Source of the DNA: Hysterangium stoloniferum
Lineage: Eukaryota > Basidiomycota > Agaricomycetes > Hysterangiales > Hysterangiaceae
Direction of reading: 5' to 3'
Assembly (NCBI GenBank): GCA_015178975.1
Contig: WHVD01000011.1
Location: 1,302,001-1,366,000, forward strand
Length of the DNA: 64,000 bases
Numbering within the stretch: position 1 is the first letter of the stretch; every line of letters starts with the position of its first letter. This document shows positions 31,106 to 39,647 of the stretch, piece by piece. The notes beneath the pieces were generated by a model. That model was not told the DNA's origin. It ran no database searches and saw only the letters and a list, made by a program, of their open reading frames with translations. A program made the position numbers and the translations under genes.

Positions 31106-31347
31106 GGTTATGGGCCCCGCGCTCTAAGCGCTCTAGTACAGTATAACGTTTTGCAAACTCGCTTCTTTTGAGTAAGTTTCAGCCTATACTTTTATATTCC
31201 CCTGCCAGGCCCAGCCTTATTGCTGTTGCTAGTAGGGAGGAACTTGTACGCCACTAAGGCTGAGTTTCCCTCGAGACTACCGTCTGGACCTCGAGTTAAA
31301 TACCTTTTTTCTCAACTTCTTTGCGAGTTTGCTCTGTCTATACTACA

Positions 31348-34300
31348 ATGTCATCTTCCATCCCCCAATTCCCTAAACTCAACTCTCATAACTACAACAC
31401 CTGGTCTGGTGAGATGCAGGCTTGGCTTCGTGCCCAGGGTGTCTGGCGCATTGTTGAGGCCACCTCCATTGCACCTGCACTATCCTCATCTCCCACAGAG
31501 GCCCAGCAAACTGCATTTGATGCTTGGGCTCTCAAGTCAGACAAAGCAGCAGGTTGGATGTACTTGAGTGTTGAGGATGATCAAAAGATTCATCTTAAAG
31601 GGATTGAGGGTGATCCGGTCAAGATGTGGACCAGTCTGTGTGATGTACACTTGCAGAAGCGCCCTGGCATGCGCTTCAATGCGTATGATGATCTTTTCTC
31701 CATCAGAAAGGAAGAGAATGAGAATTTGCAAACTCTGATGAATCGGGTGGATCTAGCCATCCGTGCCATCCAGGATCTGCGCCCATTGAATTTTGATCTT
31801 GCCAAACTTGATGAGGAACTTGCATCAATGGCAATGATCAGGGCACTTCCTGAGCAGTTTGACAACTTTGCCTCTTCTCTCCTTCTGATGGACAAGCTGG
31901 ACAAGGCTACTATCCAACAAGCTTTTGTCACAGAAGAGTCACAACGCCGTCATCGGGCTTCACAAGCTCCTGCAGTTGCATCTGCACTTACTGTAAAGGG
32001 CAATGCATCCACTGCATTTCTCAAATGTACTTTCTGCTCTATGACCAACCATACTATGGACAAGTGTCATCGCTTCATTAAGAAGCAGCAGGAAGCACAG
32101 GAGAGTGTCCTTACCAATCGTGCTAAAGGGAAGAAGAAGCCAAATAGGCCTCAGAAGACAATGTCTCAGAACAATGTTGAATATACTGGAAATGCACTTG
32201 CTTTCTCCTCATCCGATTCCTCCACCCTGCAGAATGGTTCTGACTATGATTGGCTTGCTGATACAGGTGCTAGTAGTCATATGACTCCTCATAGTCATTG
32301 GCTGCGTAACTACACACCATTATGTGTCCCAATCAAGTTAGCAGATCATACTGTTATCTACTCTGCAGGAGTTGGTTCTGTGGTATTCAACCCAGTTATA
32401 AATGGAAGGAAATCGCGATCTGTGGAGCTTACAAGAGTTTTGCATGTACCACAACTGCGCAGTAACCTACTGTCTTGTCTTTATCTCACAAGGCACAAAG
32501 GACTACTCATACACATTGATCGAACAACCATGCATTTCAAACTCTCTGGCCAGACTTTGTTTACAGCCAGAGTTACTGCACAGAATGCAGGCATCCTCAA
32601 TGGTGCCACTGCACCTATTATTGAGCAAGCTGGTGCTGCCTCCACTCTTCCCTTTGATATCAATCTCTGGCATCGCCGTCTTGGACATCACAGCTATGCT
32701 GATGTCCAGAAGATGATCAGAGAAGGATTGGTGGTTGGCTTAAACCTTGACTCAAAGGAACAACCTGATCCCATCTGTGAACCTTGCCTTGCTGGCAAAA
32801 TGACTGCCAATCCATTTCCTACCTCACCAAGTCAATCTCAGACACCACTTGAGCTTATTCATAGTGATCTACATGGACCACTTCCTGTGCAAACAACTGA
32901 GGGTTATCACTACTGGATCACCTTTATTGATGATTGTACTAAGTTGCGAGCTGTTCTGTTCTTAAAACGGAAGAGTGATGCATTTGAAGCATTCAGGAGA
33001 TACAAAGCTTATGCTGAGAATCTTCTGGGTTGCAAGGTCAAAGCTCTGCAGGATGACAAAGGGGGTGAATACATGTCAAATGCTTTCATCAAGTTTACAG
33101 ATGAATGTGGAATAGCACGCCGTCATACTACTCGTAATCGCCCTCAACAAAATGGAGTTGCAGAACGAGCCAATCGTACCTTGGCTGATCATGTCACTGC
33201 CATGATGCATGAAGCGCGTATGCCTGCCTCATTCTGGAACCATGCTGTGGCATCTTATGTCTATGTATGGAATCGTCTGCCTACTGCACCATTGCCTAAA
33301 ACTACACCCTATGAGCAATGGTACAAGCAGAAACCAGATGTGAGCAACTTGCGAGTGTGGGGGTGTACTGCCTATGTTTACATTCAAAAGGACAAAAGGA
33401 AGTCACTTCAGTCACACATGGAGAAATGCCTCTTTCTAGGCTATCCTGTGGGATACAAAGGTTGGCAATTCTACAACCCTGTTACAAAGAAGTTTATCAT
33501 CTCTGAACGGGCTGTATTTGATGAACGCCACTTTCCTGGTCTATCTACTACTGGACCAATGCCTAATATTAGGCTTTTCCCAAATATACCAAACTCTGAC
33601 ATTCCTTTATTTGTGCCAGAAGTAGAGGGGGATAATGATATTTCTGTCCTTCCTACTCATATTCCTGCACCTCCTGCTTATATTCCTGCACCTCCTGTTC
33701 AGATTCCTGCACTTCCTGAACCCATTCAACTACCTCCTCCACCTGCACCAGAACCACAGCTTCGTCGCTCTCAGCGTGTTCCAAAGCAACCTGGTGAATG
33801 GTGGAAGGTACAACCAGCTCCAGCTCTAGCTGAAGATGATGATGAGGACATTGATTATGAGGAAGTACAGTTTGTTGGAACAGCTTCAACTGCTGATCCA
33901 CAAAACTACAAGCAGGCTATGAAAGGTGATGATGCAGATAAATGGCAAGAGGCTATCAATGCAGAGTACAATACACTGGTAGAAAACAAGACATGGGAAC
34001 TTGTTGACCTCCCAGTTGGTGCAAAGGCAATTGGTTCTGGTTGGGTGTTTAAAGTCAAACACAATGCAGATGGCACCATTGAGCGTTATAAAGCTCGTCT
34101 TGTTGCCAAAGGATACTCACAACGTCCTGGCATTGACTACAATGAAGTGTTTGCACCTACTTTTAGACCTGCAACTCTGCGTTTGATTCTGGCCCTAGCT
34201 GCCATTGAAGACATGGACTTGCGCTCTGTTGATATTTCTGCCGCTTTCACTCATGGTGACCTTGATGAGACAATCTATATGAGACAACCTGAAGGCTTCC

Positions 34301-35454
34301 ATCAAGGAGGTCCTAATAAGGTTCTCAGACTCTTGAAATCACTTTATGGTCTCAAGCAGGGATCTCGTCAATGGAACATCAAATTACATGGTGCACTTAC
34401 TGAAATGGAGTTCAAACGAATTGAATCTGATACCTCTGTTTACATTTATTCAAATGGAGAGGTGAAGATCTTTGTACCCATTTACATTGATGATATTACA
34501 TTTGCATCCAAGTCCACTCTTGCCATTGACCAAGCTGTCAAGCAATTGTCCCTGCATTTCAAATGCCGTGATCTTGGACCCACTGTTTATTTACTTGGTG
34601 TGGGAGTTGGTAGAGATCGCTCTAAGCGACTCCTTACTCTTGATCAGCGACAGTTTATTCTCAACATGCTTGAGCGTTATAAAATGTCTGATTGTCATCC
34701 AGTTCTCACACCTATGACACCTGGTACATCTCTTTCCAAAGAAATGGGTCCTGAGAATGCTGCAGAGGTGGATTTCATGCGTAGTGTTCCTTATCTCAGT
34801 GCTGTTGGGTCTTTACAATACCTGGCTACTATGACCCGTCCAGATATTGCTTATACTGTGTCCTACTTGGCACGTTTTAATGGCAATCCTGGACCAAAGC
34901 ATTGGACAGCAGTGAAGCACTTGTTCAGATACCTAAAAGGTACACTGGAATACAAGTTGCATTACTCTGGTAAATGTGGCTCTGAATTATTCACCACATA
35001 CACTGATGCTGCTCATGGTGATTGCATTGATTCTGGAAGATCCACTGGTGGTTATGTAACTATGATGGCTGGAGGTGCTATTGGCTGGAGTAGTAAACTG
35101 CAAAGTATTGTCACACTTTCTACAACTGAAGCAGAATTTGTCTCTGCTGTAGAAGCTGGCAAGGAGATTGCCTGGATGCGGCAAATCCTAGGTGAATTTG
35201 GCTACCAAGTTGATCAACCCTCCACTCTACACATTGACAACCAGTCTGCCATCAGTGTTGCTAAGAACCCTGAGCATCATGGAAGGATGAAACATCTTGA
35301 CCTGCGCTACTATTGGCTTAGGGATGCTGTAAATGCCAAGTGTATTGCTCCTTCCTATATTCCTACTGCAGAACAAATTGCAGATATTCTAACCAAGCCT
35401 CTATCTACTCCCAAGGTTCAATTTTGCCGCGATGGAATGGGTATAAGGACTTAG
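31348..35454 (+). CDS. Copia gag-pol polyprotein
   Basis: A single uninterrupted frame of 1368 residues from the ATG at 31348; the frame is open 27 nt further upstream but without an ATG. Order of domains is that of Ty1/Copia: gag of the UBN2 type (residues 1-220), a CCHC knuckle (CTFCSMTNHTMDKCH, about 226-240), aspartic protease (WLADTGASSHMTP, about 303), integrase zinc region (HRRLGHH ... CEPCLAGK, about 440-480) and D,D35E core (HSDLHGP, QDDKGGEYMS, about 505-580). Reverse transcriptase (APTFRPATLRLILALAA, YIDD near 1045) and RNase H (YTDAAHGD, TTEAEF, IDNQSAI, about 1218-1330) follow. All key residues seen are intact, so the element may be mobile. Gag and pol are in one frame; no frameshift or stop separates them. 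Confidence 0.96.
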   Translation: MSSSIPQFPKLNSHNYNTWSGEMQAWLRAQGVWRIVEATSIAPALSSSPTEAQQTAFDAWALKSDKAAGWMYLSVEDDQKIHLKGIEGDPVKMWTSLCDVHLQKRPGMRFNAYDDLFSIRKEENENLQTLMNRVDLAIRAIQDLRPLNFDLAKLDEELASMAMIRALPEQFDNFASSLLLMDKLDKATIQQAFVTEESQRRHRASQAPAVASALTVKGNASTAFLKCTFCSMTNHTMDKCHRFIKKQQEAQESVLTNRAKGKKKPNRPQKTMSQNNVEYTGNALAFSSSDSSTLQNGSDYDWLADTGASSHMTPHSHWLRNYTPLCVPIKLADHTVIYSAGVGSVVFNPVINGRKSRSVELTRVLHVPQLRSNLLSCLYLTRHKGLLIHIDRTTMHFKLSGQTLFTARVTAQNAGILNGATAPIIEQAGAASTLPFDINLWHRRLGHHSYADVQKMIREGLVVGLNLDSKEQPDPICEPCLAGKMTANPFPTSPSQSQTPLELIHSDLHGPLPVQTTEGYHYWITFIDDCTKLRAVLFLKRKSDAFEAFRRYKAYAENLLGCKVKALQDDKGGEYMSNAFIKFTDECGIARRHTTRNRPQQNGVAERANRTLADHVTAMMHEARMPASFWNHAVASYVYVWNRLPTAPLPKTTPYEQWYKQKPDVSNLRVWGCTAYVYIQKDKRKSLQSHMEKCLFLGYPVGYKGWQFYNPVTKKFIISERAVFDERHFPGLSTTGPMPNIRLFPNIPNSDIPLFVPEVEGDNDISVLPTHIPAPPAYIPAPPVQIPALPEPIQLPPPPAPEPQLRRSQRVPKQPGEWWKVQPAPALAEDDDEDIDYEEVQFVGTASTADPQNYKQAMKGDDADKWQEAINAEYNTLVENKTWELVDLPVGAKAIGSGWVFKVKHNADGTIERYKARLVAKGYSQRPGIDYNEVFAPTFRPATLRLILALAAIEDMDLRSVDISAAFTHGDLDETIYMRQPEGFHQGGPNKVLRLLKSLYGLKQGSRQWNIKLHGALTEMEFKRIESDTSVYIYSNGEVKIFVPIYIDDITFASKSTLAIDQAVKQLSLHFKCRDLGPTVYLLGVGVGRDRSKRLLTLDQRQFILNMLERYKMSDCHPVLTPMTPGTSLSKEMGPENAAEVDFMRSVPYLSAVGSLQYLATMTRPDIAYTVSYLARFNGNPGPKHWTAVKHLFRYLKGTLEYKLHYSGKCGSELFTTYTDAAHGDCIDSGRSTGGYVTMMAGGAIGWSSKLQSIVTLSTTEAEFVSAVEAGKEIAWMRQILGEFGYQVDQPSTLHIDNQSAISVAKNPEHHGRMKHLDLRYYWLRDAVNAKCIAPSYIPTAEQIADILTKPLSTPKVQFCRDGMGIRT

Positions 35455-37201: not shown

Positions 37202-37438
37202 TGTTATGACCCAGAATCCATTGGACTCCACCCTTTGACAGTTGGCTTCTCCACATGTCCCTAGCCAGTTCCCAGCCTGGACTCCTGGCATTTGTTCTAG
37301 ATACTTTGGTCCATGGCCCAACCTCCACCAGATCATCCTCATCAACCCTTCTCTATGCCAATATTCCAACCTGTCTGGAACCCATGGCTTTCCCAGAAAT
37401 ATGCACACTTAGTCATTATAGTATTAGGATCCATTTCT

Positions 37439-37575
37439 GGGTGAGCCTAAATACCCACTCTGACGTGGGAATATTACATTAGGCGACAGCACCCACATGC
37501 TTTGTAACACATATTCGCGTCGTTCGCGTCGCGTTTGTTTGGTCACACCATCAAATTAAATTAATTTTCACCAGA
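37439..37575. repeat. Left terminal inverted repeat of the MULE
   Basis: 137 bp, pairs with 38905-39041 in inverted orientation. Confidence 0.88.
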
Positions 37576-37589
37576 CAACCCAGATCTTC

Positions 37590-38220
37590 TGCGACGAGGA
37601 AAAATATGACCTGGGGATACAGGAATATACTTTGCCACCCATTCCCTTGCAAGTACAGCACAAAATGCACTGAATATTGGCCTTACTGTACTCCGTGATG
37701 CTCTGCAATATGACAATGTCGAAGTGGACACTTATGATCCCAAGTACACTGTTGTAAGTGTTGTTTTTGGTGTATTCTAGGCTATCATTTCTGACATCTC
37801 AGCCAGATTTCGAATGTGTCCTATTCTCGCAGCGAATTGCAGCTCAAAGATACTTACGCCATCAGAGTCCTTAGGAGCAGTGACAAGTGGTGCTGTACTG
37901 CCTTCGCACCCCAACTGCGTCTATCTCGGACATGAAGGTGGTTTCGTTTTGGTCTGGACAGAGGGCACAGATACTTTCGACTCCGGAAAAGTTGTACCCA
38001 TTTACGTTGGGATTGTTAAGATTTCGAATTCAGATGTGTTGGCATTGGAGGGCATGCTGGATAAGTTGTGGACTGGATCGAGAAGCGGTGTGATTGCAGC
38101 GTATAGCGTCGATTCTGGTGATGAGAGAAGTGAAGGGTGGCGTATGACGAATGCATAGAGGGCGCATGAAGAGTTGCCTGTTTCGTGGATTACGCTGGAT
38201 CCATTTAGCATTGCGAAGGT
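37590..38220 (+). pseudogene. Captured fragment of a WD40-type gene, probably inositol polyphosphate 5-phosphatase
   Basis: Plus-strand exonic pieces are separated by a GT-AG intron after 37753. The second piece reads HPNCVYLGHEGGFVLVW, VKISNSDVLALEGMLDKLW, GSRSGVIAAYSVD and then AHEELPVSWITLDPFS. This succession is what I know from the WD40 region that precedes the phosphatase domain in basidiomycete inositol polyphosphate 5-phosphatases. A TAG replaces the expected Trp codon before RAHEELP (38156-38158), so the fragment cannot encode the full segment. The first piece (LNIGLTVLRDALQYDNVEV) may come from the same or another gene. No phosphatase domain is present. Confidence 0.65.
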
Positions 38221-38904
38221 GAGTTGTAACTGTTCTGTATGCCTGCACAACCAACTGTCTCACTCCCCTTGCAAATTATCATACACTCAGTATCATCTCA
38301 CCACCCACCATCGTCGGTGACTTCCTTGCAACTCCTGGCCTATTTCCATTCATATTCCAAATGTCATATTCCCACTGCCTCCTACTCTAACCACTCCCTT
38401 TCACTGGACTCTATGGGTCAAATCCGAGAACCTGAATGAGCTATGCCACAGCCTGCTTGCAGGTAGCTATTCTGTCTCTACTGCATCGTCTCCCATCATG
38501 TCGATTATCAAAGTTTGATTATATTAATAAAGATATTTGATACTTGCACTACATTGGCGTTGTTTGCTAGGACTTGTATCCTTGATAGTCTGACATCGGT
38601 ATGAACCAGCATGGTCACACTCATAAGTGTTTTTCCACAAATATCTACTTGGCCATGTAGTGTCTTTTTCTGAATATATTCATATTAGATGTGGTTTGTT
38701 AATTCTAGCAGGCACATACTGGGAACATAATGTTTTTTAAAATGCCAATTGGTCATTCGAGATTGTATTTTCAACCATTCCTTCCAAGTGTCACCTGGCA
38801 ATTGAAAACAATAAGGGTTTTCAGAGTATACTTCTTCAGTGAGGAGTCACTTGATAGCTAGCTTCACTGCTTCCACTATCATAATTATGTGGATATCTGA
38901 GTCA

Positions 38905-39041
38905 TCTGGTGAAAATTAATTTTATTTAATGGTGTGACCAAACAAATGCGACGCGAATGACGCGAATATGTGTTACAAAGCATGTGGGTGCTGTCGCCTA
39001 ATGTAATATTCCCATGTCAGAGTGGGTATTTAGGCTCACCC
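38905..39041. repeat. Right terminal inverted repeat of the MULE
   Basis: 137 bp, inverted partner of 37439-37575, followed by target duplication tccatttct at 39042-39050. Confidence 0.88.
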
Positions 39042-39647
39042 TCCATTTCTGGATAGTATTGGATATCCATGGATATTCTGACTCACTTCCTTTGTTCCAC
39101 ATTTGGTAACTGACTGGTTGACAGATGTTCATTTGTCTGTTTATTGTTCTTGCTCTTACTCCCTGATCTGTCCCCATCCTTGTATCCTCATTTATCTGAC
39201 TTTTTATTATATCCTTAGTTTGGAAACAGTTCCAAATAGGTATTATTATACTCCCAGACTTGTAGTACAATAATTGGAACATCTATATGTATAGTCTTCC
39301 ATAGTCATGTACTTACTCTTTAGTTTTAATCTCAAATTAGTCTGTATCTCATTAGTTCTTATCCCTTCTGTCTTTCTGTATGCTCAATATCCAGAACTCT
39401 CCAGACTCTGGACATCCAGAGCCCCTGGGAACTCCAAGTATCTGTAAACACTCCAGATATATCTGCCCTCTGAAATATGGACACCTGAGTGCATGAGGGT
39501 GTAGCACAAAAGCTGAAGCCAAGTCCATCTGTACTCTATTAATATTCTGATACTCCCTGAACTAATCCCTGGGAACTCCATGGACACATTCCAGGAAGTG
39601 TCCAGAATATCCACTGGAAAATCCGCCTGGAGATCTAGAACTTAACA

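Follow-up and report, generated by a model that had tools for sequence, protein, structure and literature searches.

Mutator-like elements (MULEs) create target duplications of about 8–11 bp, and many members carry long terminal inverted repeats; autonomous MULEs encode a MULE-domain transposase, often with FAR1 and SWIM domains. hAT elements have an 8-bp target duplication and a hAT transposase, and Helitrons, which work by a different mechanism, lack both inverted ends and target duplication. To our knowledge, the acquisition of gene pieces by Pack-MULEs is unsettled, because the donor, the empty element, and the filled element are rarely met together.

The plant Pack-MULEs (Jiang et al. 2004, as cited in the available portions of PMC6446971 and PMC8277862) are the closest known kind to the family described here. 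For animal Pack-TIRs, the available text of PMC8277862 gives microhomology, with a median of 2 bp, at one or both breakpoints in 67.6% of cases. Among fungi, the capture of histone H3 by a hAT element in Pyrenophora and its relatives has been called the first transduplication by DNA transposons (available parts of PMC3538342 and PMC6710886), and gene capture by Helitrons is described in Pleurotus ostreatus (PMC4289320, in part). In Rhizophagus irregularis, MULEs adjoin expanded gene families, with no fragments between the ends described in the available text (PMC8647823), and the accessible portion of a MULE survey includes host-derived inserts and one basidiomycete-containing group (PMC6446971). 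Fungal Mutator-type capture was not found in the available parts of PMC4522978, PMC10799480, and PMC13317346, and Mutator-type capture in a basidiomycete was absent from the matches listed in the open-access literature, a body of text that mostly leaves subscription papers outside.

The DNA analyzed here, termed the window, is a stretch of 64,000 nt, and coordinates are positions within it; the element at 37439-39041 is termed the window copy. A first-pass annotation had described this element as Pack-MULE-like, and this description holds, given the MULE-like transposase in longer relatives, the 9-bp target duplications, the long inverted ends, and donor genes that lack such ends. The window copy is very probably a non-autonomous deletion derivative of a Mutator-like family that captured host gene pieces successively, each nested in the previous ones, and the case is one of Pack-MULE-type capture with an unusually legible history. 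Its features are as follows, with L011 denoting a longer, transposase-bearing relative.

37430-37438: left copy of the target duplication, TCCATTTCT
37439-37585, plus strand: left inverted end, 147 bp, from arm comparison; its end motif is family-wide
37586-37674: subterminal stretch, homologous to a stretch in L011
37675-37727, plus strand: GAPDH fragment, a piece of exon 2, ending at deletion junction 1 with the shared TGG at 37725-37727
37725-37822, plus strand: second GAPDH fragment, with an intron at 37754-37806; 87% identical to the contig 553 gene
37822-38238, plus strand: fragment of an inositol-polyphosphate 5-phosphatase gene, with 132 codons from a single exon (37823-38218) and 20 nt of the donor's next intron
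38156-38158: stop codon TAG in the 5-phosphatase fragment, private to the window copy
38242-38275, plus strand: GAPDH fragment, which picks up again at the active-site codons behind a repeated CCT
38276-38534: family stretch; the homologous L011 stretch partly matches other loci, at 76–89%
38535-38536: deletion junction 2, with shared AT; relative to L011, about 2.1 kb is gone here, including most of the transposase
38536-38915 (about 38536-38684 and about 38688-38915), minus strand: remnants of the transposase 5' exons, from peptide matches, with a stop in one
38895-39041, minus strand: right inverted end, 147 bp, from arm comparison
39042-39050: right copy of the target duplication, TCCATTTCT

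The two arms are 95% complementary with 8 mismatches, so that the inverted repeats noted in the first-pass annotation are real, at a length of 147 bp rather than 137 bp. The perfect 9-bp target duplication that it listed is likewise present, identical at 9/9 positions on the two sides. The sources of 37586-37674 and 38276-38534 were not found among the matches of the homologous L011 stretches within the same genome. A 67-bp part of the first of these L011 stretches recurs at other loci, several of them on contigs with HEAT-like repeats; on contig 79, it recurs up to about 2 kb from several HEAT-like repeats, on the other strand. Elsewhere in the window, a 1377-aa open frame (31321-35454, plus strand) encodes Ty1/copia-type gag, integrase, and reverse-transcriptase domains. 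The Pfam hits for seven frames of the window are not specific to any taxon.

The genome searched comprises 111 Mb in 554 contigs, and search counts are lower bounds. With the window element as query, at least 119 matches were obtained (40 of 163 candidates scored), and the end motif, allowing up to 3 mismatches, matched at least 102 times, compared with 0 matches for a reversed control pattern, which excludes chance and confirms that the element is real. L016 is one full copy of the window element (97% over 1603 bp), L017 is built alike, with an extra insertion, and L025–L031 and L033 are short relatives of 0.9–1.1 kb. Among 21 elements with both ends, including L025, L026, and L027, which have common flanks and are non-independent, the 9-bp target duplication matches at 9/9 positions in 10, at 8/9 in 5, and at 7/9 in 2. 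It is weak in L012 and L013 (2/9; these two have common flanks, and share one left flank with L015) and in L036 (4/9), which counts against the preferred reading, as does the 10-bp repeat of L067, which scores 3/9 over nine bases and has TTAACTCAAT on both sides. L009 (contig 46, large) and L010 (contig 470, very short) represent the same insertion with mirrored identical flanks and are perhaps alternative haplotypes. L018 and L019 form one family element (contig 118:30243-39835) split by about 8 kb of other sequence, with a target duplication of 9/9 at its outer ends.

The longer members L009, L010, L011, L012, and L013 (4.0–5.2 kb) have matches to the L036 transposase peptides, on the opposite strand from the gene fragments. 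L036 belongs, with L037, L038, and L040, to a sister subfamily whose ends differ slightly and which contains transposase sequence without cargo; over 2.7 kb, L036 and L011 are 88% identical. In profile searches, the L036 peptides scored above the cut-off for SWIM (25.0 vs 19.6) and below it for MULE (16 vs 27.6) and FAR1 (19.5 vs 28.1), the latter two being further points against the preferred reading; a joined piece matched solely ZSWIM1-3 RNaseH-like, below cut-off, and no hAT domain was detected among the peptides scanned. A 153-residue transposase piece has at least 49 genome matches (39–100% identity). Those at the cargo-bearing loci C46, C142, C382, C470, and C533 either carry stops or are broken, and only C190 and C524:268373 match the whole piece without stops. 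The window copy itself retains only first-exon remnants, on the minus strand in the right arm, one with a stop. The earlier statement that the element has no transposase is right for a complete or catalytic one in this copy only; 5' exon remnants persist here, and longer relatives have a transposase. The duplications of 9 bp do not fit hAT elements, and the inverted ends and target duplications do not fit Helitrons; the window copy lacks a working transposase as a Pack-MULE does, a description that the longer relatives do not strictly share. Together, the ends and duplications argue for spread by a MULE-type transposase, which would have multiplied the composite element and may have mobilized the shortened copies in trans.

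Compared with L011, about 650 bp is missing from the window copy at the TGG junction and about 2.1 kb at the AT junction. Both junctions also occur in L016 and L017, and a single alignment spans both in L019, indicating that the shortened build is present in four insertions. These common junctions suggest that the window copy is an internal-deletion derivative of transposase-bearing elements, in which two deletions would have taken out most of the transposase and yielded a short form that itself spread.

The cargo is a chimera of several nested gene fragments, of which GAPDH forms the older layer. The C-terminal GAPDH domain is found at one locus in the genome, on contig 553. Beyond this gene, the N-terminal domain scores above cut-off at five element-like loci and two scattered ones (contigs 257, 235, 279, and 79, and, with stops, 531 and 511), and cargo pieces also match at four of these other loci. 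Family copies are 78–94% identical in DNA to the contig 553 gene, introns included (positions 241-957 of the stretch read), and no element end motif lies on contig 553 among the matches listed. A hand-spliced cargo peptide matched GAPDH structures in the PDB (E 1.4e-15); its first half gave a Pfam GAPDH match below cut-off. The intron that had been attributed to the phosphatase-like piece is real (37754-37806), but the alignment to the contig 553 gene assigns it to the GAPDH fragment adjoining that piece. Capture through RNA is rejected, as GAPDH introns are retained and so is the start of a donor intron in the 5-phosphatase piece.

The 5-phosphatase fragment (37822-38238) aligns gap-free with a contig 179 gene across 417 bp at 94% identity and extends 20 nt into the next intron of this donor. 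The captured exon lies within a 786-residue open frame, and a downstream frame matches Exo_endo_phos2 (E 4e-43). The assignment to a 5-phosphatase gene, as proposed in the first-pass annotation, is therefore upheld, but its WD40 character is unsupported by profiles: the captured peptide matched no Pfam family, the donor frame hit only a WDR36/Utp21 propeller (E 0.095), and no PDB chain was matched at E 0.01. Two findings that could have spoken against capture, an interior matching only its own repeat family and an intact parent gene with the same ends, were also looked for. The interior matches GAPDH and 5-phosphatase genes elsewhere too, and in the 9 kb read around the contig 179 donor, there is one stretch matching the element and no element ends.

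The premature stop at 38156-38158, formerly taken as the mark of an old capture, is real; however, it occurs in one of 8 aligned copies, the other seven being stop-free in this piece (L010 was left out of the alignment because its flanks, the same as those of L009, mark the same insertion). A stop confined to the window copy does not date the capture, and the phosphatase is among the younger layers, so this reading was rejected. On contig 1, a 123-bp relic (L069:330-452) crosses the phosphatase–GAPDH junction with 95% identity to L011.

Two additional pieces occur in relatives. In L067, a HEAT-like piece breaks GAPDH between gene positions 711 and 714. It matches HEAT_2 below cut-off (E 0.0048) and has at least 272 genome matches on many contigs, the family's own copies included. 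Its exact donor was not found, a point against the preferred reading: outside element-like loci, the best identity is 80%, or 87% for a 171-bp match next to GAPDH. HEAT-like repeats also form large arrays on contigs 79, 179, 212, 512, and 550, often at a spacing of about 166 bp. L067:323-2175 (contig 235) contains GAPDH and HEAT-like pieces, with the first GAPDH stretch inverted at the far end, and the order of matches on contigs 257 and 279 is similar. The other piece, carried by L012, L013, L015, and L056, derives from a glutathione S-transferase (GST) gene: it matches GST_N (E 6e-6) and GST structures (E 1e-11), several of phi class. Its best outside match (87% across 504 aligned positions, 47 gaps) lies on contig 519, among a group of GST-like stretches, and no element end motif on that contig is among the matches listed.

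The order of these captures can be read from the breakpoints. By eye, about 20 bp of the HEAT-like sequence of L011 is split around the GST piece. GST is placed within the beginning of the HEAT-like piece on this short stretch, which weighs against the preferred reading. Since GAPDH is broken by the HEAT-like piece and the latter is split by GST, GAPDH precedes HEAT, and HEAT precedes GST. At the phosphatase insertion site, L012 and L067 read uninterrupted through the GAPDH active-site codons, and the window copy and L011 read CCT, the insert, and CCT again. The phosphatase piece entered GAPDH in a lineage that retained HEAT-like sequence. GAPDH would thus have been captured first, in the interval from the left end to the transposase gene's 3' end, and the HEAT-like piece then inserted into it; later, in one lineage the 5-phosphatase exon would have entered the active-site codons of GAPDH, and in another the GST piece would have entered the HEAT-like piece. 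Divergence was measured at non-CpG columns where all compared copies differ from the donor. Such fixed differences number 16/233, 7/84, and 6/105 in three GAPDH stretches (6–8%), 9/349 in the phosphatase piece (2.6%), and 8/394 in the GST piece (2.0%), an order that agrees with that of nesting. Left- and right-arm trees did not resolve the order and were set aside for it: support was lacking at most forks, several slices of the right arm extended into insertions, and only L036, L037, L038, and L040 grouped with good support. This lack of resolution is another point against the preferred reading.

The identity of most GAPDH pieces to the resident gene, 78–87%, might indicate that some cargo was picked up in a different species or in an ancestor, and that the family came in, or was passed down, already carrying it. 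This is improbable, because some of the GAPDH distance reflects CpG decay, identity between the phosphatase piece and the resident gene reaches 95%, and the GST piece shows only the eight fixed differences given above.

The retained introns, the donors on other contigs, the short sequences common to junctions, and the 3-bp repeat all fit template switching. Under successive nested capture, the pieces would have been copied as DNA and joined at short matches, or with a 3-bp repeat, as a repairing or replicating strand switched template. The CCT repeat flanking the phosphatase insert is also what a filled-in staggered break would leave, and this compatibility with end-joining counts against template switching; the cargo could accordingly be read as free or mobile DNA that inserted secondarily and independently at breaks in a transposon that was only the target. 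Such an origin is unlikely, though deserving of some weight: the GST junction shares 7 bp (CCATTGC) between donor end and element, and the left phosphatase junction shares one base with the donor, both of which fit switching better, and no other element's ends were seen on the pieces. A further, rather unlikely reading is that the interval between the left end and the transposase 3' end is a recurrent capture site, where breaks are repaired from other genes. If true, successive host genes would have been written into one another while the transposase was still carried, leaving the capture order legible.

The copies have since decayed by CpG transition, which is strongly supported. Across 11 aligned rows, C-to-T or G-to-A changes from the majority base occur at 188/1137 CpG positions (16.5%) and 46/5035 other C or G positions (0.9%), an 18-fold difference between cells that are not independent events. 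This count excludes L013, L023, and L024 (the right ends of the latter two equal those of L012 and L009) and keeps both L018 and L019, overlapping stretches of one element; dropping L013 only, and thus adding two near-duplicate rows, gives 200/1213 vs 46/5270, or 19-fold. Between the window arms, 3 of the 8 mismatches are CG vs CA, and five are not, in agreement with the G/A changes at CpG sites pointed out initially. The decay suggested on that basis is borne out, and methylation is its putative cause.

Raw dN/dS values for the phosphatase piece (0.17–0.25 between donor and copies, 0.43 among copies) initially suggested constraint, and the piece is free of stops in all copies except the window copy, so that the element might be thought to encode it as a functional or selected product. 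Both CpG decay and donor constraint affect these ratios. Among the 68 CpG transitions possible in the piece, 57 are seen in at least one of the eight copies, and 26/57 are synonymous compared with an expected 31/68; as this share equals the mutational expectation, no selection is seen. Deletions lie within the piece in 3/8 copies, and interrupted GAPDH flanks it on both sides, making a selected product very improbable.

Collectively, donors of three among the four pieces occur in a single genome, together with elements from before and after capture whose breakpoints are resolved to the base, transposase carriers, and deletion derivatives that have spread. If the host is a basidiomycete, as the first-pass annotation took it to be, Mutator-type gene capture would be extended to that group. 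Like the Helitrons of the basidiomycete Pleurotus (PMC4289320, in part), the family carries gene fragments on a transposon. Its mechanism is a different one, as Helitrons are without inverted ends and target duplications. The hAT-H3 elements of Pyrenophora, in the available accounts, are likewise fungal DNA transposons with a host gene and with long transposase-bearing and short forms; however, they belong to hAT and carry a single gene, whereas the present family is Mutator-like and carries nested fragments of several genes. Animal Pack-TIRs share DNA-level capture, short microhomology, and multicopy forms spread by transposition, but their hosts differ, and nested serial capture is not described for them in the available text (PMC8277862).

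Plant Pack-MULEs share Mutator-type ends and duplications, intron-bearing fragments of several host genes, donors elsewhere without ends, and short forms without a working transposase. Unlike them, the family described here has the same cargo in transposase-bearing relatives and nests successive captures with the pre-capture states preserved, in a fungus-like host.
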